From Posidonia oceanica (taxonomy: Eukaryota; Streptophyta; Magnoliopsida; Alismatales; Posidoniaceae): a DNA stretch of 64,000 nt. Under the pieces are notes generated by a model that saw only the letters and a program-made list of their open reading frames with translations, was not told the DNA's origin and did no database searches. The position numbers and the translations under genes were made by a program. Below, one piece after another: positions 24,817-63,656 of this stretch (the first letter of the stretch is position 1; every line of letters starts with the position of its first letter). The stretch is taken from contig JAZBRS010000029.1 of NCBI GenBank assembly GCA_037176725.1, positions 121,553,001 through 121,617,000 on the forward strand, read 5' to 3'.

Positions 24817-24818
24817 CT

Positions 24819-25315: not shown

Positions 25316-25320
25316 TATTC

Positions 25321-25715: not shown

Positions 25716-25759
25716 AATACAATTTCTCATTTATTCATTCATTAACTTTTATTCTCTAT

Positions 25760-34700: not shown

Positions 34701-34839
34701 ACCTGGCGACTCTCCCCCGCCGGTCCGCCTCGCCGTCAGCAGCCATTTTCCCCCTTTGTCGGCCACTGGTAGCAGCTGCTACAGTGGCCGACGACCTGCG
34801 TTTCCACTGTAGCTTAATTTTCATTTAACTTAGCTATTT

Positions 34840-35700
34840 CGCCTCGTATTGCATTTTTTCATTTCAGTTTCCACCCATTTGCGTTTCAGTCCTTATTTCG
34901 TTTAATCTGCTGTTTTTCTGAATCAAAATCTTATTAAATTGCATGATCTGTTTATGGTTTTTAATATTTGCATGATAGTCCAGTTACTGTGCTTTTCAGT
35001 AGTAAAAAGTTTAAGTTTAGCCCTTCTGGTTTCAATTTTTGCATCTGAATCCTGCAGTAGATTATTTAATTTTAATGCATGAAATTTACCTTATTATATT
35101 GCATTTCAGATCCCTGTTTTTTGTCATTTTTGCATATAGGTCCATGCACTGTAGGAACTTAGCTTTCATTTTCTCATTTTGCATACTGCATTGCATTTTT
35201 TACCTTCTGGCTTTGCATATTTGCACTTAGGTCCATTTTAAATGGACAGTAGCTGTTATGCATGCATTTTAGCCTATTGTATTGCATTTTTACCCCTGTT
35301 TTTTCCAAATATTGCATTTCAGTCCTGTTCCTTGATTCCAGAGCATGTTTTCCATATAAAATTGCATATTTGACCCTTACATGATTTAAAAATCACACAT
35401 AGAGCCTTGCATCTTTCAAAAACCATGTAAAAAGACTGTTTTGCCCCTAAGTTGCATTTTAACTCCTATGCTTGCAAAATTGCATGTAGGCCCTCCACTT
35501 GCATTCCCGGACTCCCCAGAACCCCTGTTTTCTGGAAAATTTGCATTTTAGCCCATTTCTTTCTTCAAAAATGCTTTTGGATCCCTGTTCTTTCCAAATT
35601 GCTTTTCTTTGTCTTTTCTTGCTTTGCATGCATTCTGCATCCATTTAATCTTGCATTTAAGCTCCCCTTTGCATACACTAAGCACTTTTAACTCCCCTTC
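34840..35700 (+). repeat. Irregular TTGCATTT..AG phrase repeat in the LTR
   Basis: About a dozen degenerate phrases of the form TTGCATTTYAGNCCCTGTT occur at irregular 40-80 bp spacing, for example near 35098, 35140, 35300, 35325 and 35540. Many end in a pyrimidine run plus AG. The partner LTR has them at 52068-52930. Confidence 0.6.
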
Positions 35701-35949
35701 ACTTGGGAGGACCTTCAGCACACCCCTAGGACCTCCTGAACACTTAGATATGTTCTTCTCTCCTATTCTGGCCCTTCTGCTCCGAAGCTGCGATATCTTC
35801 CAATCCGACCGTTGGATCTCCTCAAGTAAGCTGCCCAGGCGACCGCGGTGAAGTGCTCTTCAGCATGGACCAAGCAGATCTCCGATCAGATTCCCGGATC
35901 TCCAGGTATGTCTTCTTGAACTCCTGCACTGCATTCATTTGCATGCCAT

Positions 35950-36790
35950 TTGCATCGTTTTGCGTCCCCTTTAGTTTTCTCGCCTCGTTTTGCGTGCCGC
36001 TTGTTTTCTCGCTCCGTTTTGCGTGCCGTTTCTTTGTCTTGCACCGTTTTGCGTGCCCTTTAGTTTTCTCGCTCCGTTTTGCGTGCTCCTAAGTTTTCTC
36101 GCTCTGTTTTGCGTGCCCTTTGGTTTTCTCGCCTCGTTTTGCGTGCTTCTAAGTTTTCTCGCTCTGTTTTGCGTGCTGCCTCTTTGTCTTGCACCGTTTT
36201 GCGTGCCCTTTGGTTTTTCTCGCCTCGTTTTGCGTGCTTCTAAGTTTTCTCGCTCTATTTTTCGTGCCGCTTCTTTGACTTGCACTGTTTTGCGTGCCCT
36301 TTAGTTTTCTCGCCTCGTTTTGCGTGCCGCTTGTTTTCTCGCTCCGTTTTGCGTGCCGCTTCTTTGTCTTGCACCGTTTTGCGTGCCCTTTAGTTTCCTC
36401 GCTCCGTTTTGCGTGCCGCTTCTTTGTCTTGCACCGTTTTGCGTGCCCTTTAGTTTCCTCGCTCCGTTTTGCGTGCTTTCAAGTTTTCTCGCTCCGTTTT
36501 GCGTGCCGCTTCTTTGCCTTGCACCGTTTTGCGTGCCCTTTAGTTTTCTCGCCTCGTTTCGCGTGCAGTCTTGTTTCCCTGCACCGTTTTGCGTGCCCTT
36601 TCGTTTTCTCGCCTCGTCTTGCGTGCCCTTGTTTTTCTTGCCCGGTTTTGCGCCCTACTTTCGTTTTCGGGCACCGTTTTGCGTTCTTGTTCCGTTCCTT
36701 GCATCATTTGCATGTCAACCTTGTTTTCGCATCTTTTCGCATCCTTGTTTCGTTCCTCGCACTGTTTTACGCTGTTTCCTCTTGCATGTC
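35950..36790 (+). repeat. 28-31-bp TTTTGCGTGCC minisatellite in the 5' LTR
   Basis: Roughly 27 units begin GTTTTGCGTGC and continue with CTTT(A/G)GTTTTCTCGC or GCTTCTTTGTCTTGCACC. The matching array in the 3' LTR (about 53180-54170) is 151 bp longer, about five units. That accounts for almost all of the LTR length difference. Confidence 0.85.
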
Positions 36791-37473
36791 GCTTGCATTG
36801 CCTGTTTTCCCCGCTGTTTTGTTTTATCGCCCGCATTTGCATATAGGGCGATGATGCTTACTGTTCGGAGTTCTCACGAGCCAGGTTCCGCCCGATTCGG
36901 AACACAGACAGCGTAGCTGAGCACTTAGAGAGCACGTTTACTTCCTTGCTTTGTTTCTTCCCACTTAGAAGCACACCTTGAGCATTCATTTGGGCATTCA
37001 TTGGCACTTAGGCATTCAAAGTCTGCATTTCCCTGCATATGTGAGCGTAAGCCTAGAAAGACCGATTCTCGGGCATGTCGGGGGTGCCTAACACCTTCCC
37101 CGCGCGTAACAGGAGTCCTTACCCTCTCTTGGCCCACAATGACCATATTGCCCTTGTCCTAGGCACGAGTCACATCATTTGCATTCATTTGCATCTCATT
37201 TCTTTTGCATTGCCATGCATTGCATCTTTTGCTTGGTCTTGCGCGATTATTCACGCATTTCCCTGGTTTTCCTCATCTTCCGATTTAATAGACTTGGTGG
37301 CGACTCCGATTTTGTCTTGTCTTCTTCTTTTCTTTCCCTTTTTCCCTCTTTTAAATGTTTTCGAGTTAGGTCTTCCTTCTCGGACATAGCCGCTAATAGT
37401 GAGCCTGATTCCGATCGGTGCACGCGAGCTTTGGCAACGTGCATGGACGATCCGAACACTGGGATTACTACAG

Positions 37474-37491
37474 TGGCGACTCCGCTGGGGA
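37474..37491 (+). other. Element 1 primer binding site (tRNA-Arg)
   Basis: TGGCGACTCCGCTGGGGA begins two bases after the LTR. It is complementary to the 3' end of a plant tRNA-Arg, including CCA, with one mismatch as I recall that tRNA. tRNA-Arg priming is typical of Ogre-type elements. Confidence 0.8.
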
Positions 37492-38807
37492 TGCTAGACT
37501 CCGGCTTTCGCTTTCGCTTTCGCTCGCTTGGGATTTGCTTTCTTTGTTTGCCTTTGTGTTTCCTTTGTCTGTTTTGCTCGTTTTCCTGTGCAAACTCCTA
37601 GCAAGTCGCCTTGTGGTTACTTCGCTTAGGTTTTGCACCCCCTTTCGGCTGCTTTCGCCTTGGTTTTTGTTCCGTCTTGCTCTGCTTTGTCTAACTTGCT
37701 TGTTTGCTTGCCCTTTTCCTTCCCTCTGCTCTTATTTGCTTTACAGTTTACCTGTCTTTGCTTTCTTTGTCTTACTTGCTTATTATTGCTTTAATTATCG
37801 CACATTGCATGTCTACATACTTGTTTGGCAACAATACATGCCTTTTGAATGTTGAATGCTTCTTTTACACCTTTGCTATGTCACTACGCACGCACATGCC
37901 TTGCATACATGCCTTTTGACTTGACGAATGTTTTTTCTTCACCATTATGCTCACAAACACTTGCACATGCCATGCACATGCCTTTTGTTGTGTTGTATGA
38001 TTGTTTGCTTGCCATGCTTGACTGATTTTCTTCCCTTTCGCACTTGCCATGCCTAGGATAGTAGAAACTTGTTTGCTCTCCCCATGGTTAACTAAAAACC
38101 GCAAGTAAAAAGAACTCCTAGGAGCAACTAGAGACTCTGAACAATCCTTCACTCCCTCTGGTTAATAAAATGCGCAAGATAAAAGACTTTAATCATTTGC
38201 ATAAGCATCATATAGGGCATGCATTCTTCTCCTCTGAGTCCACTTACTAGTCTGCGAAGGATGGTTCCGGCTTCTCACCCCGATGCTTTGGCATGGTGTG
38301 AGTCAGTCGGTCTGTCCCCCCTTGTCCGGGGTCGTGTCGGTGTTAGTGGAGGGTACCACCCACGCTTTGGCAGGGTAGAGGCCACCAACGCACCACCCTG
38401 TCATTACCTGAGCTTTGGGCCGGGAGTTAGACAGGGAGCCTACTTTTCTGACTCGAGTCAGTGACCCGTACACTTGTGGATATCCGGAGTAGACTACCTA
38501 TCAGGAAACACTAGATTGGTGAGAGAGGGAGCATGCTAGAAAGCATACATGTCATCCATGCCTTAACTTAGTGCATTTTGCATCTCTTTTTTTCTCTAAC
38601 CCTAGTTTTCTGTTGTGCCTTTAACAGAGTTCAGTAAGCGATCTCCTTAGCTGGAGCTCGGGTCTCTCCTTTGTTGACATCTCTGCTGAGACACCTGTGC
38701 TCGACCATCCTTTTTCTGAGCTACTCGTCTTTGCGAGCATAGCTCCTCGTAGAGCCCGTCCCCTTTTCCCTCGTCGCAGCCCCGTTTTGACTCGCTCTCG
38801 GTCAGTA
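37492..38807 (+). other. Element 1 leader (5' untranslated RNA)
   Basis: The first part is T/C-rich with no conserved frame. The block 38216-38510 is clearly conserved with 61026-61312 of element 2, although neither keeps an open frame. It includes a CCCC...GGGG stem whose loop differs between the two elements (CCTTGTCC versus CCTTGTTA). This is the position of retroviral packaging or dimerisation signals. That role is inference. Confidence 0.55.
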
Positions 38808-41800
38808 ATGGCCCAGCGCACCGTCGAGACCCCCCTCACCCTTGCCTCGGAGGTAGTTCCCGCTCCGGCCCCTCCGGCTCCCGTTTCAAACCCCTCTGTG
38901 CCCTCTGTGACGCCAGGCTTTTCCCCTCTGTCGTCTGGGGCACCTCAGTTTGCTGTGGGACAGTGGCAGACGCTCGCTCCTCCTGATCCGGTCGCCGAGT
39001 CCATCTTGATGGCCACTTCACGTGTTCTAGAGGCACCACTGACCCCACCTCCTCAGGGTTTTGTCACTTTTGACCCCCCTTCTGCTGCGGCGACTCTCGC
39101 CCTAGGATTCCAGTCTCCCGGACAGTCCGGATCTCTTGGTTCTGGTTCCTCGCTGGCATTGCAATTCAGTGTTCCCACTGACGGGACACCTGAAGAGCAG
39201 TACCAGCAACTGATGGACACTATCCAGCGGCTGCAGGGTATAGCTCTATCAGTCCGCCCTCCTTCCCCTCCTGTTGTTCCTGAGGTTCCTGTGCGGCCTG
39301 CTCTCGCACATCTTGCATTGCACACGGCACTCCCGCCTAGACCATCGTCCCAACTGCTCACGGTTCCGACGATGGGGGCACGTATTCCGCCTCTTGCATC
39401 TGCACCACATCTCACACAGCATGCACCTCCGCCACCTGGTGGCCAGTCGTTCGGACTGGTGGGAGCACAGTATCTCGCAGGCCCGTCCCCCGGCACCGCC
39501 CCGGTACGGCCGTTGATGCTCCATCATCCTGCACCCACCACACAGCATACCATCTATCCTCCCCCTTTGCATCAGGCTCAGACTTCCACATGCATCCCTC
39601 CTTGCACTCCACCACAGCACGGGTATGCCGGCCATCACTTTGCGTCACCAGGCGATGTGATGGTGGATCCGGAGGAGCACCTCGGTGCGACCCAATCGGC
39701 ATACTTGGTCCCTGCCCCCGCTGCCCCATCACCTGTAGCAGCTATTCCAGACCCCATCAACAACAGGATGGATGTTCTGGAGAAAGCACTGCGTCTAGTG
39801 CAGGGCACGGACCACCAGACCTACCAGTTTCGAGACCTCTGCTGTTTCCCAGAGGCTGTACTCCCCCCAAAGTTCAAAATACCGGACTTTGAGAAGTATG
39901 ATGGTAGGGGCTGCCCCATAGCCCATCTGAAGGCGTACTGCGGTGATCTCGCCCAACTCTAGGCGGACGAGAGGTTGCTGATCCGCCTGTTCCAAAAGAG
40001 TTTGTCTGGTCCGACCCTCAAGTGGTTTACCTCGCTTGACATGGCTACGATCAAGACTTGGAACGACCTAAGCCAGGCGTTCTTGGAACAATACTCCTTC
40101 AACCTCGATCTGGTCCCAAAGCGCGCGGACTTGATCGCAATCAAGCAGAATCCGGGTGAGCCGTTCGGGGAGTACGTCGGCCGCTGGCGTGCCCTTGCCT
40201 CGCAAGTTCGAGATAGGCCCTCCGACGAGGAGTCTATCGAGATCATCATAAAAGGGGCACAGCCGTCTACCGGAGCTTTGCTTAGCATCCAACCCGTCAC
40301 AACCTTCACTGCTTTGATCCGAGCTGGCACTCGCGTAGAGAGTTCGTTGCGGAGTGGCAACTTCCCCGCACTCTCTGTGCTTGCCAGGCAGGCCCCCGCC
40401 AGCAACGACGGTAGTAGCAGCAGCGCCATCAACAACAACAGCAGTCTCAACAACAATCGTCCCAAGAGGAAGGATCCACCGAAGCCCGTTGTTGCGTACG
40501 TCGACTCCCCTGTTGCGCCCGTCCGTCTGGCGTCCCGGCCTGCCCCTCCTCAGATCTATTACGCACCTGCACCTAGGGCACACCCTACACCACAAATCAC
40601 TACCACCGCTCGACCGGTCTATCCTGCCGCACCGGTTCAGCAAGGACAATTCCAGAGACCGAGATGGCCACCCATGGAGAAGCAGAAGTTCGCCCCACTG
40701 GTGGAACCGCTCACTGCCGTCCTCCCGAAGGTTGCGTCGCTCCTGAGATTTCCGGAGGTTCGCCCGCCACCAAACCCACTACCGCATTGGTTTAAGGCGA
40801 ACCTTTTCTGCGACTTTCATCGAAGCGTCGGGCATTCGACTGATAGTTGTTTCACTCTCCGGAATGCTATCCAAGACTTGATCGAATCGGGAACGATTGT
40901 GATCGACACGCACGAGGCATCCACTTTTGCACCATCTCATGCACCTGCATTAGCATCTACCCCAGCTAATGTTGTCCGCCGACCCCTGCCGGAGCACTCC
41001 TATTCAGGAGGCGCAGGGACCTCAGGAATTCACTCCTTGTTTCCTTCTGGGTCTCTCACATCTGTGGTGGATCCTTCCGAGCTTATCCATGATGTTTCTA
41101 CTCCCTTTCCAGTCCCTCTCTATCTTGCAGCTATCGCCGGTTCCGAGCCGGGCGTCCATATGATCCGACCGCGCGCCAGGCCGGAGCGTTCTCCTGCATC
41201 AGTCGCCATGCTTTCCCGGGTCCAAGCCCCAATACACCTCCTAGCCAGACCTCAACCAGAGCTTCCCGTGCACCTACTAGCAAGACCTCAGTCCCCACCT
41301 AGCTTGCCTTCCCAGCTACCCTCCTATCCGTGCCCTCCTCAGCCTGTAGCCCCTCTCGTGCTCGCTGCACGCGCTCCCGTGGTTATTAACCTAACCCGGG
41401 ATACCCATCGCTTACCTTACAGCTACGCCACAGAAATGTGTGCGGAAGTGACGCGATCGGGGAGGGTCTACAGACCTCCGGCACCAGTAACCAGACCTAG
41501 CCACCCAGAACCTGCAATACCATTGCCCTTAGCCCAGCCTACAGCCCCACTACCTTCAGGCCAGCCTCTTGAATCCACCATAGCTGAACCTGTCCCTACA
41601 ACTGCACCACCTGCTACCAAAAAATGCCAGCCTAAAGCCGACATCACATCCCAGCTCAAAAAGGTTAAGGCCGACATATCTATCTGGGACCTAATACACA
41701 CTTCGGCCGAGCACTGCGAGGCTTTCCTTCGCGTGTTCCAAGCCGCCCGTGTGTCCCAAGCCATAGAACCCGCTGCCTTGGAAAGCATGGTCGGGATGAT

Positions 41801-42737
41801 CGCGGAGCCCCAGGTCATCACTTTCACGAGTGATGAGCTACCTCCGGTGGGGATTAATCACAATCAACCCTTGTTCATCACGGTACAATTCAAGAACTTT
41901 CGCATTCCCCTTGCACTGGTCGATAATGGGTTAGGCCTTGACGTCTGTCCCTTGCGAACAGCAACCAAGCTCGGATTCAAGGCCGAGGACATTACTCCAG
42001 CTGTAAAGGGAATGACAGCTTTTGATAACACTCACCATGACGCTCTAGGGATTTTGATTATTCCTCTTACCATTGGCCCGGTCACATTCGATGTGGAATT
42101 CTACGTCGTCGACTTGGAACCTAACTTCAACTTTCTGCTTGGGCGCCCTTGGCTCCACAAGCATCAGGTTATCCCCTCGACCCTCCATCGCATGATCAAG
42201 TTCCGCCGAGGCGACGATGTTATCGTTGTCATGGCGGAGAATTTTGAGAAGGAGTGGATCGAGGCGGTTTCCTCTATCTCTTCGCGGACTGTCCCCTTTG
42301 ATCCTGATCTCTCGAACGCCTTGTATCGCGTTAATCGGTGCGAGCCGGTTAACTTTTTACCAGATCTTGAGCATGTCAACTCCTTGGCCATTCACAACAA
42401 CCCCTTTCAGATGGTCGAGAACGTTTGTCACAGATGGGGCTACGTCAAAGGGACACCTCTCGGGCGACATGGCCAAGGAATCGCCGAACCAATCATGGCG
42501 GAAGAACGAAGAGACAACGAGGGTCTAGGTTACGACCCTCACGCCGATAAAGGCAAGCGCCCGCAAGCGAAGAATCAGAGAATGGTCATACCTCGGAGCT
42601 TAGCTAACTTTACAAGTGCAGGTATCCTGGGTTCAAGCGCAGTTCAAGCCGTAGTGCAGTCAGAGCCGTGTCAAAGCCCTCCGCCACCGGAGGAGGACTG
42701 GGTCTGCGTTGAGGACTACTACTCGGACGAGGAATAG
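38808..42737 (+). CDS. Element 1 gag-protease polyprotein with one internal TAG
   Basis: Gag makes the particle and the aspartic protease matures it. The ATG at 38808 (MAQRTVETP) is supported because upstream sequence is not kept open in element 2. A Pro/Ala-rich N-terminal half is followed by the gag core (CPIAHLKAYCGDLAQL, RLFQKSLSGPTLKWF, TWNDLSQAFLEQYSFNLD). A Cys/His segment CDFHRSVGHSTDSC occurs near residue 666. The retropepsin segment has ALVDNGLGLDVCP near residue 1038, with the catalytic triad as DNG, and FNFLLGRPWLH beyond it. A G-patch-like stretch, GTPLGRHGQGIAEP, follows near residue 1220. One in-frame TAG (39960-39962) sits inside the gag core, and the frame closes at TAG 42735-42737. 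With the TAG read, the product would be 1,309 aa. Confidence 0.82.
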
Positions 42738-44079
42738 TCGGGCACGACGGGGGCAGTTCAGACTTGTAATGGAAGCCAGCCAAGCCCAACAGCACCTCGA
42801 TCAGTTTGTTCAGTCCTTCCGACCGAGGATCATGAAGCAGCAGACTTGACAGAACCCTTGGTAGATTGGGCAGTCTTTGATTCTCCTGCAGTCATGTCAG
42901 CAATACCAGCACCAATTCAAGCACAGTCAGTCAGTTCGTGTGCAACCGTTGTCGCATCAGTACAACTACCACCTTCGCAGAAAGGTCAATCGCTGAGTTC
43001 AGTCAGCAGCACAGCTCAGTCCTTTTCAGAGGCCGCATCATAGGCAATACAGCCAGCTCAATCAGTCATGCACCCCTTTGCCGCAGACCGGCAACTTTCA
43101 TGGCCAGATCCTATGGTATCGGAGGCCGAGCTCTCGTCGTCATCACCAGTCACGGAGAACCAGCTGAGCATCGCGGTCTCCCGGCCCTCAGGCCTTCAAG
43201 AGAGCACCTCTGCCCATCCTCTGACAGCAGCAGTCACTCTGGCAGCATATCCATCTGCAATCCCCCTGACTAGACCATCTGGGTCTCCCTTGCCGAGATA
43301 GTCGCAATCAGGCGCGCCTGTGAGTCAGAAGATACAAGTACCAGAGACAGTAATCCATCTCGCAGCCGAGCCAGTGCCTCAGGCCCTCGGCGCCTACTAT
43401 GTCGATTCACCCTTAGATGAGGAAGAAGGAGGGGCGATAGAAGCCCAAGTCGATTCATGGATGTCTGATTTGGAGCTACTTTACCAAGAACAGCTCGAAT
43501 CCATAGTAGAAGACCTAGCACAGCACCAAGCCGCAGAAAGGAAAGGAAAAGCCGTGGTTACGGATCCTCCTCTGCGAGAGAACCACACCTCCATCATGGT
43601 CCTAGGAGAAAGCTCAGTGGTGTCGGATTCTCTCAGACCCGACGAGCTCATTACCATTCAACCCGAAGGTGGGTCTAGTTGGCTCGTGCAGCACATGCCT
43701 CACTCGGGCAGGATAGCAAAGGGCGGCAGTATCCAGGTCAGCCGCCAGTCCGATACGCCCTCCACAAGCATGTTAGCAGATTCAGAAGAAGAGGCACCAG
43801 TGGATCACACAACAACGGCAACAGAACAGAAAGCAGAATCAGTGACAGAGTTGTCAGAAGTTTCAGTGGCAAAGTCATCAGCAGTATTAGTCGCAGAACT
43901 GGCAAGGCTTTCAGTAGTATCAGCAGAACATGCAGCAGTATCATCAGCAGCAGAGCAGACGGGAGAAGTTGTCAGAACAGAGGCCGCGCGCCGAGGATAC
44001 AGAAACTCTTGAGGACATGGACCAGGTCGAGCAGCCCGGGCCGGTCAACATGTGCTACCTCAAGAAGTACTATCAGTAG
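42738..44079 (+). pseudogene. In-frame low-complexity extension where pol is expected
   Basis: After the TAG at 42735 the same frame stays open, apart from TAG at 43041-43043 and 43299-43301, to a TGA at 44010. It encodes Ser/Ala/Gln/Glu-rich sequence without a known domain, including YYVDSPLDEEEGG and SWMSDLELLYQEQLES. Near 43970 a frame change gives a better C-terminus, EDMDQVEQPGPVNMCYLKKYY, closing at TAG 44077-44079. Such a tyrosine-rich tail resembles the end of Ty3 polyproteins. No RT, RNase H or integrase motif is present. It may be a gag-pol remnant after loss of the enzymes, or a real extension. Confidence 0.5.
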
Positions 44080-45416
44080 CTGAGAGTAGCCATTGCGGAT
44101 CCTTCCTCCCACTTGTCATATCTTCACCACTTTCATGACTTTGTATCTCTTTTCGCTCTATCTCCTCCCCACTTCACTTCATCCACTCTCTTGCATTTCC
44201 TGACATCGCAACACTCCCGTGCATCCCTCCGCTCATCCCATTCGCATCTCTTATCAGATCATACATTGCATTCTGCCCGGTGATGAAAACCGGAGGTGCT
44301 TGCCTGCTGCGAAAGGAGTCTCCCGACCTCACCCGATGCTGCTTAGATGTCTTGACTAGTGAGGGAGCCACCACTCAATGAGAGCGGGCGAAATGCCCAA
44401 ACCCCTAAGGACTTACGCCCTTTAGAAGAGTGCTAGGTGCTAGTCAGAAAGCAGTACATATCCCAGCCTAGAAGAAAAAAAGGGAGAAAGAGAAAGCCAA
44501 AAGCCTGTACCCGAAAGACCCTAACGCCCATCTCCCCTGGGGGAGGGGACAGCGGAAACCTGCAAGCCAAAAAAAAAAAGGAAAATGAAAAAGAAAAAAG
44601 AACGAAAAAAGAAAAAAAAAAAAAACAAAAGGAGAATGATAGAAAAGAAAAGGGAGAGGGGGGGAAAGGCCCCATTCCCGCAAAAAAAAAAGAGAAAAAG
44701 GAAAAAAAGAAGAAGAGAATAAAGGCCGGCCGCGCAACCCCGCACCTCTCACCTACCCCAGAAAAGAGGCAAAGCCCGGGTCGAGTCCTCCTTGCTTCCA
44801 AAATAGGAATGAGGAGAGCTCTGCACACCGACATTAAAAAAAAGAGAGAAGAAAGAGGTAGGAGTGAGTGTAAGTCCTTGAGAGTTTGACATGGAGCCCG
44901 TCTTCTCTACACCACCACCAAACATCACCAACACCCCTTCCTCGAGTGCCACCAACAAGTTAGGAGTCCAAGTAGAGTCCGGTGAGTTAGGGACCGCTCC
45001 CTTTCCATACAGCAGGCACCAAAGCACCCCGATACTGAGGGCAAACTACGCCAAATCACACGCATCTGCATTTTCCAGTCATCTCCACCCTCTCTGATCA
45101 TCCCACTCCGCAAAGGCTCACCCCAGCGCTGAGACAGTACTTCTACTTAGCATGCGTTGGCACCGTCAGGCTGCGACAACCCGGGGTTCCCGACAGTCCC
45201 CGCCACATCAACAGAATGCCCTTATGCTTATACATGTTCAATTGCCATAGTCTGAATGTTTACTGCTAAATGTGTTGCACCTATTTCTACCAGTTTCAGA
45301 ATCTGCTTTCCTATGACGGTTTTGTGCCTATATGAGCTCTGATAATTCACAGTCTTGGCAACAGGTATCTGAAGACTCTTGTAACAGCCGTCTGCCCACA
45401 TCCTGCAATCTGTGCA
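44080..45416 (+). other. Non-coding spacer with an internal polypurine tract
   Basis: The spacer contains an A/G-rich tract (about 44470-44730; nearly pure purine at 44640-44688) that produces open frames of K/E or F/L runs on the two strands. These are not real genes. Just upstream of the next ORF, TTGCACCTATTTCTACCAGTTTCAG (ends 45299) and GATAATTCACAG (ends about 45352) look like splice acceptors. Confidence 0.5.
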
Positions 45417-46619
45417 ATGGGTTTCCCCACTCTGGTGACCTCGGCACACTGTTCTGAGATCCTGCGAGAATGGATCGGCAAGCTTACAAAAGATGACTGT
45501 GAGAAGCTGCGCCTGTGGGGCATTCCGACCAAACTGCTAAAGGCTGCTGATGTAGAGGTGAGCCGCCATCTTCTGTGTGCTGCTGCGCGATTCTGGAAAC
45601 CAGCACACCATGTCTTCCGTTTCGGCAGAACTGAATTGACACCTACACTGGAAGAAGTGCGCCGGATCTGTGGCTTTTCCAAGATCTTGGGGCCGCCCAT
45701 CTTCATGAGGCATGACGGATACATGGCAGTCCTGAAACAGCTAACCGGTCTCTCTACCCAAAGTTGCCAGCAGAAGCTGATTTGTACTAGCGGGCCCATG
45801 CCTCTGCTTCGCCTAGCGTACTTTGATGATATTGTGGAAAAGCGCACTGAACTCGGAGACGAGCTGTGGCTCCGAGGGTTTGTCACCCGTTTCCTAGGCG
45901 AGCTGGTCTTTACTCATGGCAAGGTAACAGTGGCCGTCGAGATCGCTGAAATAGCACTCGCCGTGGTGACTCGCCAGATAGACCTAGCACCGGTTGTCTT
46001 GGCAGAAACCTACCGCGGTCTGGACCGCATCTCTCATCGCTGCCGCCACTTTCATGGTTGCGGATCATTCATTCAGGTCTGGCTAGCGGTGCACACTGAG
46101 ATAGACCTTCTGCGCCCCCAAGTGCATGCTTTCGAGGCCTACTGCAGCAGCGGCCATGCCAAGGCAGTCAAGAGCGTCAAGGAAGAATATGAAAGGCTAT
46201 CGGGACTGACAGACGACACAGTCACATGGCGCATCATTCCTTCTGCAGCCGAAGCATTCACTGTCTTCTTCAATGCACGCGACATGCGTTTGGCCGTGCT
46301 ACCAGGATTTACCGCGGGTGTAGAATATCACCCTATCAGAGTCATGCGTCAGTTCGGCTTCCAGCAGGGCGCCTTTGTCGACAGCATAGCGCCTAAGCTC
46401 CTTCAAGAATATCCCCTCAGTACAATTGCCCCCACGAAGGAGCTGGCCAACCTGATGCAGCATGGGGTGCGATCAACAGACATCGCTGCAATAAGAGGTG
46501 CAGGGTGTACCCCTGAGTACATCACTGAAGTGCAGGACCTCTGGCCCATTGACGAAGTCCCGCCGAGCGGTCCCTTGTTCCCTGACTCTGGAAGATCAAA
46601 GAAGGCCCGAATCAGCTAG
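45417..46619 (+). CDS. Plant-mobile-domain/DUF7745-like protein carried by element 1
   Basis: This is an intact 400-codon ORF starting at ATG 45417. Landmarks in order are an N-terminal helical part (EWIGKLTKDDCEKLRLWGI), FWKPAHHVFRFGRTELTPT followed by LEEVRRICGF (about residues 60-88), APVVLAETYRGLD (about 195-207), GCGSFIQVWLAVHTEIDLL (about 216-234) and a basic C-terminus (GRSKKARIS). The pattern FW.P....F.F...ELTPT.EE plus LAET.R.L and GC...VW matches the DUF7745 type of plant mobile domain seen in ORF1 of Ogre-like elements and in host MAIN-like proteins. The molecular function is unknown. In Ogre elements the extra ORF usually lies upstream of gag; here it lies downstream, in an env-like position, possibly expressed from a spliced RNA. 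Unlike the gag frame it contains no stop, so it may be under selection. Confidence 0.75.
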   Translation: MGFPTLVTSAHCSEILREWIGKLTKDDCEKLRLWGIPTKLLKAADVEVSRHLLCAAARFWKPAHHVFRFGRTELTPTLEEVRRICGFSKILGPPIFMRHDGYMAVLKQLTGLSTQSCQQKLICTSGPMPLLRLAYFDDIVEKRTELGDELWLRGFVTRFLGELVFTHGKVTVAVEIAEIALAVVTRQIDLAPVVLAETYRGLDRISHRCRHFHGCGSFIQVWLAVHTEIDLLRPQVHAFEAYCSSGHAKAVKSVKEEYERLSGLTDDTVTWRIIPSAAEAFTVFFNARDMRLAVLPGFTAGVEYHPIRVMRQFGFQQGAFVDSIAPKLLQEYPLSTIAPTKELANLMQHGVRSTDIAAIRGAGCTPEYITEVQDLWPIDEVPPSGPLFPDSGRSKKARIS

Positions 46620-46977
46620 AGCCATCATGCAGCTGTCATTCTGCCTTCCTTTCAAGTTGTGCTGTACTTTTTGGCCTGTCACGGGCATGTAACCAACAAT
46701 TCTATCAATGCAAAACTGTTTTGCGCTGGCTGTTCACATTTCAAAGCTGATCATGCATTCCATGCTCCTCGTCGCTCACGTTCGGAGGCCCCTTGGCCCG
46801 ACTGATTGCTCGCATGACGCAGGAAAGTCCTCAACAAACGACCCAGGCTCCAGGACCTCTGCGAACCCGCGCCGTCTGACCTGCCACCGGATATCCCCGG
46901 CTGAGTCTCCTTTGGGCTGGTACCCCAAACTACTCGTCTGACAAACACGTTAGTTTTGTCCACCCTTCGCTTTTCTC

Positions 46978-47053
46978 GATACCAGGGACGTTTCGACCAA
47001 CCCCTGGTATCATCCTGATACCAGGGGCATCTTTTCAGACGCCCCGCGGTATC
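46978..47053. other. Two adjacent GATACC...GGTATC hairpins
   Basis: Hairpin 1 pairs GATACCAGGG (46978-46987) with CCCTGGTATC (47002-47011), ten perfect pairs with a 14-nt loop. Hairpin 2 pairs GATACCAGGGGC (47017-47028) with GCCCCGCGGTATC (47041-47053), with one small internal mismatch. They lie downstream of the plant-mobile-domain ORF and could act as RNA 3'-end structures or protein sites. Confidence 0.75.
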
Positions 47054-47084
47054 TCACCCTTGCTCTCATTCCCCTTTTGCCGAC

Positions 47085-47335
47085 CGATAAGTCCGATATC
47101 TTATCACCTTTCCCAATCAATCAATCTCATCATTATCTCATCTCCTCTTTGCCGGTCGATAAGTCCGATATCTTATCACCTTTTCCAATCAAGCTCTCAT
47201 CATTACCTCATCCCCCTTCTTTAGCATTAGCTCTCATCATTACCTCATCCCCCTTCTTTAGCATTAGTTCTCATCATTACCTCATCCCCCTTCTTTAGCA
47301 TTAGTTCTCATCATTACCTCATCTCCCTCTTTAGA
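47085..47335. repeat. GATAAG..CTTATC motifs and 37-bp tandem repeat
   Basis: GATAAGTCCGATATCTTATC occurs near 47086 and again near 47159, each a potential short hairpin. From 47194 a 37-bp unit (TCTCATCATTACCTCATC followed by a TTCTTTAGCATTAG end) repeats about four times. Confidence 0.8.
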
Positions 47336-47477
47336 AGTAGCCTCTCATCATGATCTCATCCCCTCTTATCAAGCAATCAAGCACTCATCAATCAATCATT
47401 CAGCAATCAATCATTCAGCATTCAATCACCCATCAACCAATCACTCATCACTCGATCATTCAACAATCAAGCACCCC

Positions 47478-48460
47478 CAGGCTGATATTCCTAAACTATC
47501 TACTCTCAGGCTGATATTCCTAAACTATCTACTCTCAGGCTGATATTCCTAAACTATCTACTCTCAGGCTGATATTCCTAAACTATCTATTCTCAGGCTG
47601 ATATCCTAAACTATCTATTCTCAGGCTGATATTCCTAAACTATCTATCTTCTGGCCGATCCATGGTTGGCCCGCAGTTGTGTTATACGGCTGACATCCAG
47701 TAACTGTCCCTCGCAATGCCGCCAGGCTGATAACCTAAACTATCGATCTAGGCTGATAACCTAAACTATCGCTAGGCTGATATCCTAAACTATCTATCTA
47801 GGCTGATATCCTAAACTATCCGGCATTTGCGTAATACGGCTGACATCCAGTAACTGTCCCTCGTAATTGCCCCTTCCAGTTGATAGGACTGTAAACTATC
47901 GATCTAGGCTGATATCCTAAACTATCTATCTAGGCTGATATCCTAAACTATCGATCTAGGCTGATAACCTAAACTATCGATCCAGGCTGATATCCTAAAC
48001 TATCTATGGCAATTACGTTATACGGCTGATATCCAGTAACTATCCCTTGCAATTGCTCTTTCCAGTTGATAGGACTGTAAACTATCTCTAGGCTGATAAC
48101 CTAAACTATCGATCTAGGCTGATATCCTAAACTATCGATCTAGGCTGATAACCTAAACTATCGCCAGGCTGATATCCTAAACTATCTATCGCAATTGCAT
48201 TATACGGCTGACATCCAGTAACTGTCCCTCGCAATGCCGCTAGGCTGATAACCTAAACTATCGATCTAGGCTGATAACCTAAACTATCGCTAGGCTGATA
48301 TCCTAAACTATCTATCTAGGCTGATATCCTAAACTATCCGGCATTTGCGTTATACGGCTGATATCCAGTAACTATCACTCACAACTGCGCCTTCCGGTTG
48401 ATAGGACCGTAAACTATCGTTCCGGTTGATAGGACCGTAAACTATCGCCCTCGGCTGATG
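47478..48460. repeat. GGCTGATAT..AAACTATC array upstream of the 3' LTR
   Basis: First come about six 29-bp units (CAGGCTGATATTCCTAAAC then TATCTACTCT; 47478-47650). Then 22-26-bp units (AGGCTGATATCCTAAACTAT with CGATCT) run to about 48460, broken at intervals by TACGGCTGACATCCAGTAAC segments. Most units hold GATA facing TATC, so each can fold as a small hairpin (for example GATAGGACTGTAAACTATC). Tandem arrays in this position are common in Ogre-type elements. Confidence 0.85.
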
Positions 48461-48941
48461 ATCCGAAACTCATCCGGTCGATAAGTCCGACAACTTATCA
48501 CCTCCCCGCGCGACTTCGTCCCAAAAGACGGAGCCCCGCATCCTTCTGCGTCCGGGAAAAGGTCCACCTCTCCCGTCACGCCTTTGTGGCTTTGGCTATC
48601 CTTCTTTTCGTGGCAAGTCTGGACCTCCCGTCAAGCTCCGCGGTGCACCGCAACGTCCCCCTTCAGCGTCGTCAGCATCGCCAGCGTCACCCGCGTCGCT
48701 TCGGTCCCCCCATCGGTATTAACTCCAGCACTAACTTTTGCATTGCATCCGCATTAGCATGCATCGCATACATTGCATCTCATCCATTTGCACCTGCACA
48801 TTGCACCGCGGCAACGATCCACGATGTTCGGCGCATCCGCCGAATAAGTGGCTCACGCCGATAGCAACCCTCTGCTCTCGCTGGTCAAATGGGGTGTCCC
48901 GTCAACCCTGAGCAGCGGCCTCGCTTCGCTCGGCCTCGCTC
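48461..48941 (+). other. Element 1 3' untranslated segment before the polypurine tract
   Basis: A GC-rich segment with an unremarkable 92-codon open frame (48586-48864) and a TTGCATCC/GCATTGCATC-rich middle. It leads into the polypurine tract. No gene is supported. Confidence 0.4.
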
Positions 48942-48954
48942 AAGGAGGGGCATT
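48942..48954 (+). other. Element 1 polypurine tract
   Basis: AAGGAGGGGCATT directly precedes TGTTGACA of the 3' LTR. It is the expected plus-strand primer for a plant Ty3 element. Confidence 0.85.
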
Positions 48955-51900
48955 TGTTGACACCCCATTTTGACAGGCTGGATCGTTTGGAGCCTTCCGG
49001 TGGCTGCTGGACCCGAATCTAGACCCAAATCCGCGCTTTCCTCTCCTTCTTTCCCTTCAAAACAAGCCCAAACTCAACCTCGGATTACCCCCCTTTCCCA
49101 AACCTGAAAACCAACCAAAATCCATAGGAAAACTCACCCCTGATGACTTAGCAAGCTCACCAAAAAGCGTGCAAAATCTCAAACCAGACCCCTCCCAAAA
49201 ATCCTAGGAAACTTAGGCAAAACTACCCTTTTTCTACACCTCAAAACCCCTCCAAAACTTCCTCAAAACCAAACCAAAACCCTGGGACCAAAACTAGAAA
49301 TCCTAGACCCCGTGCCCGCCAAGTTTCACCCCTTTCCGAGACCTCTAAGTCCCCCTTTTGCCCAAATTATCGTTTTCTCTCTCCGGGATTATCGTTTTCT
49401 CTCTCCTCTCTTTCTCCTGATTATCGTCTCTCTTTTCATCCCCTTCTTGTCCTTTCTCTGGCTTGGCTGTGGGCCCCCTTTGTACTCCTGCCCTTTCTCT
49501 ATCTTATTCCTATTTTTATTTTATTTTTAGCATTTTCCCTGAATTTTAAAAATCTTTTCCCTCAAACCTATCTCTTTCCCCTTTTATTCTCTTTTTTCCC
49601 CTTTTCTTCTTCTTTTCCTTTTCCTTCTTCTCTCTTTTGCAAAAACCCATAAAAATCCTTAAAAATCTGTAAAACCCCAGAACATAAAAGAAACAAATCA
49701 GAATTCCAAGAAAAGCAACTAAAAAACATTAAACAAATGATTAAAAACTCAAACTTAACTAAATCAAGCTAAAAAGAAAACCAAGCATGCAAACTAAAAA
49801 ATGCAAAACAAACTAAAAGAAAATACTGTAAAATCAAGTAAAAAACTGAAATAAAGTTAGAACCTACCAAAAATAAAAACCCCACTAAAAGAATTAAAAA
49901 ACAAACCCTAAAGAGAAGAATTAAAAATCAAACACTAAAACAAGTAATTAAAGGAGGCAAAAGACCTAACCTAATAAGCATAAGAAAAACAACATAAAAA
50001 CTTAATTAAAAAGGAAAAGGAAAATACAGTTGAAAGACTTAAAAACACTTAATCAAACCAGAAAAATCCAACTAAAAAACATCAAGAAGAATTAACAAAT
50101 AAAAATCAAAAGCATAGTTCAAAAGACTTAAGGAAGAAAAAACATAAAAGACTAGAACTAAAAAGCCCAAAACCCTTTTTAATTAATATGAAAATAAATC
50201 CTAAAAATCCTAACTAACATCCTAAAATACTTAACAAGAAAACACAATTTTAAAAACAATTTAAAAAGATTTAACCAACACCTAATCAAGTGGAAAACAA
50301 ATTAAAAACAAAATAAAACCCTAAAACCCTAATCAAGCCTAAAACATATTAATTAACCCCAAAACAGTCATTAAAAAATTTTAATTACAACCCTAACCCA
50401 CAACACAACCTTTCTAGTATATTTATTTATTTTAACTTATTTTTTTCTAATTTTATTTCCCTCCTTCTTTCCCTCTTTCTTTCTTTCTTCCTTTTTATTT
50501 TTTTCTTTTCTTCCTTACTGGGCTCATCAGCCCGTTACCCCGTTTTTTTTCTTTTTTTTTCAAACCTCGGCCCGGCCCGCAGCTACAGTCCTCCTTCTTC
50601 CTCCTTCCCTCTCCCGCGTTGCAGAGCTACAGTGGTCGCCCCCTGCAGCTCTGCCCGACCTGCCACCTCCTGCTCGAGCAGGGCTGGCGTGCGCCGAAGC
50701 TTCGTCCTTGCTCCTGCCGTGGCCTCAGACCTGCAAAGCTAAGAGAGGAATGGTCAGAATTCAGGGGAGGAAAGTCGGCAGGAGTCAGGCCTGAAACGGG
50801 AGGAGAAGAGAGGAGAAAAAGGAGAGAGTTCATCCGAGAGAAACCCCGAGCATTCCGATGGAATCCCCAGCGAGAGAGAGGGCGGAATTTCCTCTGAAAT
50901 CCACCGAGAAATTCAGACCTTCCGCCTCTTCCTTCCACGGCAAACCCAGACCCGAAACCCCCGGGGAATCCTTCAGAATTCCCCCCCCAATCTCACCCAA
51001 GCCTCTTGCAACTCCTCCCTTCCTTCCCACAGAGAAACGAACCCACATTTCGCCTGAATCCACCTGAAATCCAGACCGAACCCAACACGAATCCCTTCTG
51101 GAATTCCCCGCACCACAGACCACTAACTCTCCTCAAACTTTGCCCAGACACTCGCTAAGACACCACCTCCCTAAGCCACCCGACCTTCAGCCTTCTCCCC
51201 CACCACAGACGAAACCTTCCACCACAAACACCTACGTCCGATTCTGTCCAGAATTCACTCTACCAGCAAACTTCACTCACAGCCTCCACAGACCTAACCT
51301 AACCCTCCAAACACCATCACCGAACCTCCAGCTACCCACCGGAAGCCTCCGCTCGATCCAGAGGGCGACAGCCAGCTCCCTCGACCTCAGGCGACACCTG
51401 CAGCACCCAAAAATCCCATCTTCTTCCTCCAGCATCAGAGCTTCACTCCGAGCGTCCAGGAAGAACCGGAGGACTCCACGGAGCAGATCTGGGCGATCGC
51501 GAGTCGCTGACGATGCCCGCACGCTCCGGACGATCATCGCCGGCATCTGCAGAACCCACCGACGTCGGGGAGACGCTCCGGACAGCGCAACAAGTATATT
51601 TTTCCTCCTTCAGCCTCCTCATCCTCTCCTCTTGCTTCTCCACCCCTCGAAAAGGGGTTCTGCAGCCGTTTTCGCGAAGGTCAGCGCCGTCGCTGACCTT
51701 CTTCCCCGACGAGCTCGACGCTCGTCCCGCCGCGCCGAGCTGCAGAACGACCCCCCGTCGGTCGCCCTAGCTCCGCACGGCCGCCAGGACTCCAACCGTG
51801 GTCTCCGTTTCCTCCGACAGCCCCTCCTCTCGCCGAACTGCCTTCAGGTCAGTTCAGACCTCCGGTGGCTCCTTAGCACCGCTCCAGGCCACGTCGCCGC

Positions 51901-54854
51901 TCGCCGGACGTCTCCCGCGCTCCGCCAGGACCTGGCGACTCTCCCCCGCCGGTCCGCCTCGCCGTCAGCAGCCATTTTCCCCCTTTGTCGGCCACTGGTA
52001 GCAGCTGCTACAGTGGCCGACGACCTGCGTTTCCACTGTAGCTTAATTTTCATTTAACTTAGCTATTTCGCCTCGTATTGCATTTTTTCATTTCAGTTTC
52101 CACCCATTTGCGTTTCAGTCCTTATTTCGTTTAATCTGCTGTTTTTCTGAATCAAAATCTTATTAAATTGCATGATCTGTTTATGGTTTTTAATATTTGC
52201 ATGATAGTCCAGTTACTGTGCTTTTCAGTAGTAAAAAGTTTAAGTTTAGCCCTTCTGGTTTCAATTTTTGCATCTGAATCCTGCAGTAGATTATTTAATT
52301 TTAATGCATGAAATTTACCTTATTATATTGCGCATTTCAGATCCCTGTTTTTTGTCATTTTTGCATATAGGTCCATGCACTGTAGGAACTTAGCTTTCAT
52401 TTTCTCATTTTGCATACTGCATTGCATTTTTTACCTTTTGGCTTTGCATATTTGCACTTAGGTCCATTTTAAATGGACAGTAGCTGTTATGCATGCATTT
52501 TAGCCTATTGTATTGCATTTTTACCCCTGTTTTTTCCAAATATTGCATTTCAGTCTTGTTCCTTGATTCCAGAGCATGTTTTCCATATAAAATTGCATAT
52601 TTGACCCTTACATGATTTAAAAATCACACATAGAGCCTTGCATCTTTCAAAAATCATGTAAAAAGACTGTTTTGCCCCTAAGTTGCATTTTAACTCCTAT
52701 GCTTGCAAAATTGCATGTAGGCCCTCCACTTGCATTCCCGGACTCCCCAGAACCCCTGTTTTCTAGAAAATTTGCATTTTAGCCCATTTCTTTCTTCAAA
52801 AATGCTTTTGGATCCCTGTTCTTTCCAAATTGCTTTTCTTTGTCTTTTCTTGCTTTGCATGCATTCTGCATCCATTTAATCTTGCATTTAAGCTCCCCTT
52901 TGCATACACTAAGCACTTTTAACTCCCCTTCACTTGGGAGGACCTTCAGCACACCCCTAGGACCTCCTGAACACTTAGATCTGTTCTTCTCTCCTGTTTT
53001 GGCCCTTCTGCTCCGAAGCTGCGATATCTTCCAATCCGACCGTTGGATCTCCTCAAGTAAGCTGCCCAGGCGACCGCGGCGAAGTGCTCTTCAGCATGGA
53101 CCAAGCAGATCTCCGATCAGATTCCCAGATCTCCAGGTATGTCTTCTTGAACTCCTGCACTGCATTCATTTGCATGCCATTTGCATCGTTTTGCGTCCCC
53201 TTTAGTTTTCTCGCCTCGTTTTGCGTGCCGCTTGTTTTCTCGCTCCGTTTTGCGTGCCGCTTCTTTGTCTTGCACCGTTTTGCGTGCCCTTTAGTTTTCT
53301 CGCTCCTTTTTGCATGCTCCTAAGTTTTCTCGCTCTGTTTTGCGTGCCGCTTCTTCGTCTTGCACCGTTTTGCGTGCCCCTTTGGTTTTCTCGCCTCGTT
53401 TTGCGTGCTTCTAAGTTTTCTCGCTCTGTTTTGCGTGCGGCTTCTTTGTCTTGCACCGTTTTGCGTGCCCTTTGGTTTTCTCGCCTCGTTTTGCGTGCAG
53501 TCTCGTTTTCTCGCACCATTTTGCGTGCCGCCTCTTTGTCTTGCACTGTTTTGCGTGCCCTTTGGTTTTCTCGCCTCGTTTTGCGTGCTTCTAAGTTTTC
53601 TCGCTCTGTTTTGCGTGCTGCCTCTTTGTCTTGCACCGTTTTGCGTGCCCTTTGGTTTTTCTCGCCTCGTTTTGTGTGCTTCTAAGTTTTCTCGCTCTAT
53701 TTTGTGTGCCGCTTCTTTGTCTTGCACCGTTTTGCGTGCCCTTTAGTTTTCTCGCCTCGTTTTGCGTGCCGCTTGTTTTCTCGCTCCGTTTTGCGTGCCG
53801 CTTCTTTGTCTTGCACCGTTTTGCGTGTCCTTTAGTTTCCTCGCTCCGTTTTGCGTGCTTTCAAGTTTTCTCGCTCCGTTTTGCGTGCCGCTTCTTTGCC
53901 TTGCACCGTTTTGCGTGCCCTTTAGTTTTCTCGCCTCATTTCACGTGCAGTCTTGTTTCCCTGCACCGTTTTGCGTGCCCTTTCGTTTTCTCGCCTCGTC
54001 TTGCGTGCCCTTGTTTTTCTTGCCCGGTTTTGCGCCCTTCTTTCGTTTTCGGGCACCGTTTTGCGTTCTTGTTCCGTTCCTTGCATCATTTGCATGTCAA
54101 CCTTGTTTTCGCATCTTTTCGCATCCTTGTTTCGTTCCTCGCACTGTTTTACGCTGTTTCCTCTTGCATGTCGCTTGCATTGCCTGTTTTCCCCGCTGTT
54201 TTGTTTTATCGCCCGCATTTGCATATAGGGCGATGATGCTTACTGTTCGGAGTTCTCACGAGCCAGGTTCCGCCCGGTTCGGAACACAGACAGCGTAGCT
54301 GAGCACTTAGAGAGCACGTTTACTTCCTTGCTTTGTTTCTTCCCACTTAGAAGCACACCTTGAGCATTCATTTGGGCATTCATTGGCACTTAGGCATTCA
54401 AAGTCTGCATTTCCCTGCATATGCGAGCGTAAGCCTAGAAAGACCGATTCTCGGGCGTGTCGGGGGTGCCTAACACCTTCCCCGCGCGTAACAGGAGTCC
54501 TTACCCTCTCTTGGCCCGCAATGACCATATTGCCCTTGTCCTAGGCACGAGTCACATCATTTGCATTCATTTGCATCTCATTTCTTTTGCATGGCCATGC
54601 ATTGCATCTTTTGCTTGGTCTTGCGCGATTATTCACGCATTTCCCCGATTTTCCTCGTCTTCCGATTTAATAGACTTGGTGGCGACTCCGATTTTGTATT
54701 GTCTTCTTCTTTTCTTTCCCTTTTTCCCTCTTTTAAATGTTTTCGAGTTAGGTCTTCCTTCTCGGACATAGCCGCTAATAGTGAGCCTGATTCCGATCGG
54801 TGCACGCGAGCTTTGGCAACATGCATGGACGATCTGAACACTGGGATTACTACA
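48955..54854 (+). repeat. Element 1 3' LTR (5,900 bp)
   Basis: Collinear with 31726-37472. Differences are mainly C/T and G/A transitions, more frequent in the GC-rich parts than in the A-rich block, plus the 151-bp longer TTTTGCGTGCC array and a 2-bp insertion near 52331. It ends GGGATTACTACA at 54854, followed by the AGTAC duplication. Confidence 0.92.
53180..54170 (+). repeat. 28-31-bp TTTTGCGTGCC minisatellite in the 3' LTR
   Basis: Same unit family as 35950-36790 but about five units longer, with internal blocks reshuffled (for example a GTGCAGTCTCG unit near 53494 not seen in the same place in the 5' LTR). The open frames it produces are repeat artefacts. Confidence 0.85.
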
Positions 54855-55163: not shown

Positions 55164-55165
55164 AT

Positions 55166-60397: not shown

Positions 60398-60398
60398 G

Positions 60399-60416
60399 TG
60401 GCGACTCCGCTGAGGA
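60399..60416 (+). other. Element 2 primer binding site (tRNA-Arg type)
   Basis: TGGCGACTCCGCTGAGGA differs from the element 1 site by one base and has the same position relative to the LTR end. Confidence 0.8.
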
Positions 60417-61635
60417 TACTAGACTCCAGCTTTCGTTTCTACTCTTCCACTTTTTCTGTAGCTTGTTTCTTTGCTTAGCTTAGCATTTGTTGCCTTGTTT
60501 ATTTACTTATCGCATTATTCTTTATTCATTGCCTATCTCAGCATTTATTTACCTTATCTGCTTATTTATTGCTTTAATTCACGCACTTTCCTTAATTTAG
60601 CGTTTGATTACCATGCCTGCTTGATTATTGCACTAATCCATGCCCTTTGCCTGATGCTTGGGTTATTTTACACAAGTATGCCATGTCACTTCACTTATAC
60701 ACATGCCATGCTTGTATATGCCTTTTGATGTGCTGATTGTCTTTCATTTTCACATATCATGTAACACAATACTAGCACATGCCATGAGCATGCTTTTTGC
60801 AATGATGTGTGATGTTTGCCTACCGTGCTTGGGTGATTTTCTTCCCCTCTTGCACTAAGCCTAAGAACAATTAGAGATTGATTGCTTCCTCCATGGCTAA
60901 TTAAAAGTGGCAAGTAAAATTGATTCTAGGTACAACTAGAGGCCTCAACACACTTTCATCCTCTTTGAGTTAATAAAACATGCAAGATAAAAAACTTTAA
61001 CCATATTTGCATGAATAAGCATATAGGGCATGCATCTTCTCTCCTCTGAGTCCACCTACCAGTCTGAGAAGGATAGTCCTGGTCTCTTGCTCCATCGCTT
61101 TGGCATGGTGCGAGTTGGTCGGTCTATCCCCCCTTGTTAGGGGTCGCGTCGGTGTTAGTAGAGGGTATAGCCCATGCTTTAGTAGGGCCAAGGCTCCTAA
61201 AGCACCACCCCGTCACTACCTAAGCTTCGGCTAGGATTTAGACAAGGACCTACTTTTTCTGACCTGAGTCGGTGACCTATACACCTGTGAGTATTCGAAG
61301 TAGACAACCTACTAAGACACATTAGATTGGTAAGAGAGAGCATGATAGAGAGCATACATTTGCATGAATGCCATTCATATCACGATTAAATACATTTGCA
61401 TTTTACTTTTGGGTTTTAACGCCTGTTTTTGTTTGTGATGTGTCTCGTCACAAAGAGGTCAGTGAGCGAGTTCCCTAGCTAGTGCTCGAGTCTTTTCTTT
61501 TACTGACACCCCTGTTGCGACACCTGTTCCCGACCATCCTCCCTTGAGCTATCCGCCTTCGCGACAATAGCTCCTCCTAGGACCCGTCCTCCCATTTTTC
61601 GTCGCAGCCCTGTTCTCACTCACTCTCGGTCAGCT
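60417..61635 (+). other. Element 2 leader
   Basis: It is T/C-rich at first. The block 61026-61312 matches the element 1 leader 38216-38510, and the stretch before gag (61455-61635) also aligns. No open frame is kept, so conservation is at RNA or DNA level or reflects shared ancestry. Confidence 0.6.
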
Positions 61636-63209
61636 ATGGCCTAGTTTGCTGGTGAGCCCCTGATCTCTGTTGCCTTGGAGGGAATTTCCACTTTGGTCCC
61701 TCCGACTCTCACTTCGACTCCCTCTATGCCTCTTGTGATACTAGGGTTTCACGCTCTAGTGCCTAGGATACCCCAACATGCTGCGAGGCATTGGCAAACC
61801 TACGCCCCTCTGGATCCTGTCACCGAGCCCATCTTGATGATCCCCACTCGCGCTTCGAAGGCGCCTCTGACCCCTCCGTCCCAGGGCTATGTCGCTCTCG
61901 ACATCCCTTTCGCTGTGGCGACCTTTGTTGTAGGTTCCCTATCTCCTGGACAGTCTGTGTCCTTACCTTTTGGATCTGGTCTCCTGCCGGCACTACACCT
62001 CAGCATTCCCACTATTGGATCCCTTGACGTGCAGTATCAGCACCTGATAGAGACTGCCTAGAGACTGCAGGGCATGGCTCTATCTATTCCCCCTTCTTTC
62101 ATTCCCGCTTCTCCCGAGGTTCCCCCAGCGCCTGCTCTTGCATTTCAGGCTTTCCCCACTGCACCCCCGCCTAGACCATTGCCCCAGCTACTCACTGCTC
62201 CGGTGATGGGGGCACGGTTTCCACCTCCTGCATTTACACCACTCACCGCACAGCATTTACCTCTGCCATCTGGTGGCTAGTCCTTCGGGCTGGTTGGAGC
62301 ACAGTACCCCACAGGCCCTCTGCCTGGCACCGCACCTGCGCAGCCACTGTTGCTCCAGCACTCTGCGCCACCCACTGCACAGCATGCTACCTACCCCTAC
62401 CCCATGCATCAGCAGGTTCCTACCCCAGCATGCATCCCATCATACACTGCACCCACACACGGATACGCCAGCCATCACGTTGCATCACCAGGCGACGCAA
62501 TGGTGGATCTGGAGGAGCACCTTAGTGCGACCCAGTCGACGTATATGGTCCCTGCCCTTGCTGCCCCATCACCTTCGGCAGCAAATCCAGACCCCATCAA
62601 TAATAGGGTGGACGTTCTAGAAAAGGCACTACGTCTAGTGCAGGGCAATGATCACCATTCCTACTAGTTCCGGGACCTCTGCTACTTTCCAGAGGCGGTA
62701 CTCCCACCGAAATTTCGTATCCCAGATTTTGATAAATATAATGGTAGGGGCTGCCCCATTGCTCATCTGAAGGCGTACTACGGAGATCTCGCCCAGCTCT
62801 AGGCTGATGAGAGATTGCTGATCCGCCTGTTCCAAAAGAGTTTGACCAGCCTGGCCCTCAAGTGGTTCATCTCGCTTGACATGGCCACCATCAAGACTTG
62901 GAACAACCTTAGTTAGGCGTTCCTGGAACAATACTCTTTCAACCTGGACCTGGTCCCAAAGTGCGTGGACCTAGTCGCCACCAAGTAGAATCCCAACAAG
63001 CTGTTCGGGGAGTATGTCGGCCGTTGGCGCGCCCTTGCCTTACAGGTTCGAGATAGACCCTCTGATGAGGAGTCTATCGAGATCGTTATCTAGGGTGCGC
63101 AACCATCTACCGAGGCTCTGCTTAGCATTCCGCCAGTCACAACCTTTGCATCACTGATTTGGGTTGGCGTTCGCGTGGAGAGTTCGCTGCAGAGTGGCAA
63201 CTTCACTAT
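61636..63209 (+). pseudogene. Element 2 gag with eight in-frame TAG codons and no other stop
   Basis: Collinear with element 1 gag from ATG 61636. The frame has no net frameshift: all 524 codons to the insertion point stay in one frame. Eight stops occur, all TAG: 61642, 62059, 62278, 62665, 62800, 62914, 62986 and 63091 (first base). Six of these are CAG (Gln) in element 1, one (62800) is also TAG in element 1, and one is AAA. Conserved gag landmarks include CPIAHLKAYYGDLAQL, LLIRLFQKSL and FLEQYSFNLDLVPK. As read, it cannot make a full gag without readthrough. Confidence 0.88.
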
Positions 63210-63289
63210 TGTAGACACTCCATTTTGACTCCTGCATTAATGGCTCTTCTTTGGTGGACTCAAATCCCAAACCACAACCATCCCAAATC

Positions 63290-63460
63290 CCAAAACCTAA
63301 AACCTAACACCCAAAACCCTAAATCCTAAACCCAACACCCAAAACCCTAAAACCCTAAACCCTAAACCCTAAACCATAAACCCTAAACCCTAAACCCAAC
63401 ACCCAAAACCCTAAAACCCTAAACCCTAAACCCTAAACCCCAAACCCTAATCCCAAATCA
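63290..63460. repeat. Interstitial telomere-like (CCCTAAA)n inside the element 4 LTR
   Basis: Short perfect runs of CCCTAAA, the plant telomere unit, are mixed with AACACCCAAAACC variants. The same style resumes after the SINE (63655-63720). Because it lies within an LTR between retroelement sequences, it is not a chromosome end. Confidence 0.75.
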
Positions 63461-63461
63461 T

Positions 63462-63656
63462 AATGGTTACTGTAGTGGTTGGGTCACCTCCACTACCCTC
63501 TCATGACGTGGGTTCGAAACCCGCTCGGTGCATATTGAGTGGGATTTTCCCATTCTTTCTTGCATGGGATTAATTTCCTTTCCGTGCGACCTGTGGGATT
63601 TTTTGAAGAAAAAATCCGTTAAGCTATAGTAGGTTAGGGTATAAAAAAAAAAAAAA
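63462..63656 (+). mobile_element. tRNA-derived SINE
   Basis: The 5' part has an A-box-like TGTAGTGGTTGG (63471-63482) and a perfect B-box GGTTCGAAACC (63511-63521) at RNA polymerase III spacing. The 3' end is a run of fourteen A (63643-63656). The total is about 195 bp, normal for plant SINEs. The head resembles the Au-type SINE family. No convincing target duplication is visible because the flanks are themselves repetitive. Confidence 0.75.

Follow-up and report, generated by a model that had tools for sequence, protein, structure and literature searches.

Methylated cytosine is well known to tend to become thymine. The CHG>THG transition signature is established across plants (PMC12994199), transitions are raised at CG, CHG and CHH sites in the transposable elements of wheat (PMC2996936), and the repeats of Welwitschia present another case of long-term deamination (PMC8275611). 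The terms of the Tat/Ogre lineage of Ty3/gypsy LTR retrotransposons are taken here from PMC6317226 and PMC11963269. Among the matches listed, and in the text that these offered, nothing was on point for stop codons in Ogre/Tat elements, for CHG deamination with stops or for amber readthrough in plant retrotransposons. The window analysed here, a stretch of 64,000 nucleotides from the seagrass Posidonia oceanica (contig JAZBRS010000029.1), harbors two related elements (Table 1). Similar to the plant transposable elements of PMC2996936 and PMC12994199, it contains a silent-looking retroelement with C>T changes enriched at CG and CHG over CHH; unlike those cases, the changes, at presumably methylated cytosines, take the form of nonsense codons within a single gag.

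Element 1 resembles the Tat/Ogre lineage in being very long with very long LTRs (5747 and 5900 bases) and in possessing a gag-protease frame, a 5-base target duplication (AGTAC on either side) and an additional ORF with a Plant mobile domain. The gag-pro piece following the internal TAG gave Pfam matches to Retrotrans_gag, to G-patch and, weakly, to Asp_protease_2, while the ORF downstream of gag-pro (45336-46616) matched the Plant mobile domain (PF10536) and DUF7745; element 1 thus combines a Ty3-type gag with an additional ORF. Pfam scanning of six of the frames of element 1 matched no reverse transcriptase, RH or integrase, so that the domains diagnostic of the lineage offer no comparison. 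Past its stop, the gag-pro frame continues open to 44009 (region 42735-44012) with two more TAGs at 43041 and 43299. The part 42738-44009 looks coding, with strong codon periodicity and A-rich third positions; two of its three pieces showed no match to the gag relative P0001, and none of the three had a Pfam match.

Of element 2, a Ty3-type LTR retrotransposon that is probably Tat/Ogre-like, a remnant is left. What is seen of it comprises an LTR end, TTACTACA, finishing at 60397, a leader of which 60635-61635 was aligned to the leader of element 1, and a gag piece whose homology to element 1 ends at 63204. The LTR end is followed by what we take to be a primer binding site. Telomere-like AAACCCTAA-type repeats extend from about 63257 to 63866, just past the end of the gag homology.

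Table 1. Positions of the retroelement features in the window.
Feature	Position	Strand	Remarks
Element 1, complete LTR retrotransposon	31726..54854	+	LTRs 31726-37472 and 48955-54854
Element 1 gag-protease frame	38808..42734	+	gag ATG at 38808; one internal TAG at 39960
Element 2 leader	60398..61635	+	after LTR end and putative primer binding site
Element 2 gag remnant	61636..63209	+	translation, stop scan, codon alignment to element 1
Element 2 gag TAG positions	61642, 62059, 62278, 62665, 62800, 62914, 62986, 63091	+	
Copia-type gag	30578-31789	minus	within copia-type pieces 19749-31789
Copia-type Pol_BBD	22806-23552	minus	
Copia-type RVT_2	20369-21661	minus	

Rfam gave no match at gathering score anywhere in the window. 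Three of ten other long frames in it matched Pfam families, all of them copia-type parts (Table 1), so that no second decayed Ty3 gag is at hand as a control. The left end of element 1 lies inside the copia-type gag frame. On both sides of element 1 stands a repeat pair (27967-29082 and 55164-56282, 91% identical), possibly the termini of a previous element into which element 1 inserted, and an LTR fragment at 823-1885 shares about 80% identity with the end of the element 1 LTRs.

Translation and stop scanning of the element 2 gag-like frame bore out the original prediction of an unbroken frame of 524 codons with eight in-frame stops, all TAG and all at the predicted positions; TAA, TGA and frameshifts are absent. 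In the remaining two forward frames of this segment there are 20 TGA, 15 TAG and 3 TAA in total, hence the all-TAG pattern exceeds what base composition gives. In the codon alignment to element 1 the gaps are in-frame only (three events, of 2, 1 and 1 codons), and six of the eight TAGs face CAG, as had been proposed. Of the other two, 62800 aligns to 39960, the sole TAG of element 1 gag-pro, a coincidence on which the prediction was silent. The TAG at 63091 is opposite AAA and is therefore no one-step change of CAG; it needs a different change or two steps.

Ancestral residues were sought in related gag protein fragments, of which 37 of the 39 fetched were used, P0001 and P0025 being left out as distant. 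P0001 and P0005 carry the accession PF19259, which we take to be the Ty3 capsid. The relatives are stop-free by construction and so show the ancestral residue, not the frequency of TAG in other copies. Among the rows covering each site, glutamine is present at 62059 in 1/1, at 62278 in 2/2, at 62665 in 15/17, at 62800 in 19/20, at 62914 in 18/27 and at 62986 in 21/22, whereas site 63091 is variable in 21 relatives (R 9, K 6, G 4, W 1, E 1); 61642 is covered by none. The proposal that the TAGs descend from CAG holds for the six sites facing CAG and, through glutamine in nearly all relatives, for 62800, but 63091 has no simple CAG ancestor. DNA relatives were not found in viral contigs with a one-protein query or with one 12-protein alignment.

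The ends of the relatives' open frames carry some information on their decay, to which contig ends may contribute. Of the 37 frames, 22 are scoreable, since the family has a clear consensus for the residue that would follow their end; this residue is Gln in 11, Trp in 4, Lys in 2 and Y, T, R, L and E in one each, against a background of Gln in 17/268 and Trp in 3/268 such columns. The frames of P0027, P0029, P0030 and P0031 terminate exactly at site 62986. As protein fragments do not show the stop codons, TAG is indistinguishable from TAA or TGA at these ends. The relatives seem to decay in further ways as well, given that four of the 22 scoreable frames end before Trp and that P0003 and P0028 finish out of register with the rest of the family. 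P0006-P0009 start soon after 62800 and could be cut by an upstream stop.

The mutation spectrum was derived from the element 1 LTR pair, which differs at 85 positions over 5747 aligned bases, 68 of the mismatches being transitions. Counted on either strand and unpolarised, C>T changes affect 27/516 CG (5.2%), 20/476 CHG (4.2%) and 21/1658 CHH sites (1.3%), CG and CHG sites thus being hit more often than CHH. In gag, first-position C>T in CAG (6/24) is as frequent as C>T at second-position CHG (13/63; Fisher p 0.77), with nonsynonymous first-position CHG outside CAG at 10/62. The TAGs of element 2 gag act like other CHG changes, and CAG>TAG is not commoner than missense CHG change. At codon positions 1 and 2, C>T/G>A changes from element 1 to element 2 outnumber the reverse (89/612 vs 51/571, p 0.003), whereas at position 3 the two directions are similar (69/308 vs 58/293, p 0.48); the second-position CHG asymmetry is borderline (13/63 vs 3/48, p 0.054). 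Among 190 conserved columns, 17 show a departure in element 2 only. C>T/G>A alone accounts for 12 of these, namely two TAG and ten missense, and the remaining five need other or several changes. Departures confined to element 1 number 11, of which 3 are wholly C>T/G>A.

These data speak for the cause originally proposed, deamination of presumably methylated CHG cytosines: the LTR-pair spectrum agrees with it, as do the glutamines that relatives carry at those CAG/TAG sites they cover, the equal rates at other CHG sites and the C>T/G>A missense damage. Judged from sequence, the element 2 gag stops very probably represent decay after insertion through deamination of methylated cytosine in CG and CHG contexts.

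The prediction had also offered tolerance of amber codons as an alternative. If UAG in gag-pro of this retrotransposon family were read through, for example as glutamine, gag would be functional despite its TAGs. The two elements together have twelve in-frame stops (eight in 61636-63209 and four in 38808-44009), among which TAA and TGA are absent and TAG is the sole type; they share a TAG at one codon, and dN/dS between them is 0.10 in the gag core, as such a mechanism would have it. However, constraint is not maintained in the TAG-bearing copy: the ten missense changes that C>T/G>A alone has made at conserved element 2 residues are unexpected for a working gag, TAG is no more frequent than other CHG changes, and the shared codon is Gln in the great majority of relatives covering it, which lack stops by construction. 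ARAGORN detected no tRNA genes in the window, which says little about the genome. Because of the missense damage and the TAG rate equal to that of other CHG changes, readthrough was set aside as highly improbable. The TAG count of element 1 was also compared with expectation. Its gag-pro holds 41 CAG, for which the LTR rate predicts about 0.9 TAGs, and one is observed. Over 38808-44009, with 57 CAG, 1.2 TAGs are expected and four observed (P 0.03), or three (P 0.12) when 42735 is counted as the natural stop.

The divergence of the two gag genes points to selection before insertion. Overall dN/dS is 0.28 (bootstrap 0.22-0.37), with 0.10 (0.06-0.17) in the gag core, formed by the final 196 codons of the alignment, and 0.44 elsewhere. 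Indels between the elements are divisible by three in all 3 events of the coding part and in 4 of 17 in the leader. The low dN/dS and the indels in multiples of three imply that most divergence arose while gag was under selection, and the intact gag frame reflects selection before insertion. In the element 1 LTR pair five of six indel events fall at 36115-36392, inside a tandem-repeat zone, and the lone one outside is of 2 bases at 35100; since LTR indels are this rare outside tandem repeats, a gag free of frameshifts after recent decay is unsurprising.

The codon that is TAG in both elements might instead descend from a TAG-bearing ancestor mobilised by partner elements, the remaining TAGs being later decay. 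Besides the identity of the codon, the lack of a reverse transcriptase match in the six Pfam-scanned frames, by which element 1 may depend on partners, is in line with this proposal. Against it stand the distance between the elements (dS 0.70 overall, 0.85 in the core) and the strong constraint acting over that interval, the prevalence of Gln among relatives at the shared codon, and the roughly 7/25 chance that an independent element 1 TAG meets a CAG-derived TAG site of element 2, which means that coincidence at 39960/62800 is not strained. We regard common inheritance as unlikely; most simply, the TAG at 39960 would be an independent second hit.

The odds of an all-TAG pattern depend on the model. 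When the codons of element 1 were mutated sequentially at rates taken from the LTRs (40-120 mutations), 8-22% of the simulated runs with 6-8 stops had TAG only. The figure is 1-9% in a cruder simulation with fixed context, 1-2% for context-free C>T and 2-4% for unbiased mutation, and seven of seven TAG from the at-risk codons of element 2 itself has a probability of 33%. Element 2 gag at present has 19 CAG, 8 TAG, 5 CAA, 1 CGA and 5 TGG codons, and the small number of CAA and CGA codons at risk partly accounts for the scarcity of TAA and TGA. Together with the rarity of LTR indels beyond the tandem repeats, this means that TAA, TGA and frameshifts were not to be strongly expected. What the original prediction called a clean signature is therefore real as regards the exclusive use of TAG but less diagnostic than was held, since the other kinds of damage are not strongly expected. 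Six or more TAGs arose in 3% of the runs at 60 simulated deaminations, in 10% at 80 and in 21% at 100. The excess of transitions (158 vs 109) would suggest about 50-60 deaminations in element 2. Against that figure the TAGs are rather numerous, and the case for deamination is at its weakest here.

In the history that we infer for element 2, the gag lineage would have evolved under selection up to insertion, after which the inserted copy would have been silenced and left to decay. At its CG and CHG sites, presumably methylated, cytosine would then have deaminated to thymine. CAG, which provides a CHG context, would be the commonest gag codon one such step from a stop, and for this reason the stops would have come out as TAG.

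The all-TAG pattern is tidy yet ordinary, with most of the eight stops attributable to methylated cytosine turning into thymine. Readthrough, if true, would give a plant element a novel means of outliving its own decay, but the data speak against this. Decay in cytosine contexts, combined with codon usage, can yield a striking pattern of a single stop codon, and amber-only pseudogenes in plant repeats should not be read as recoding.
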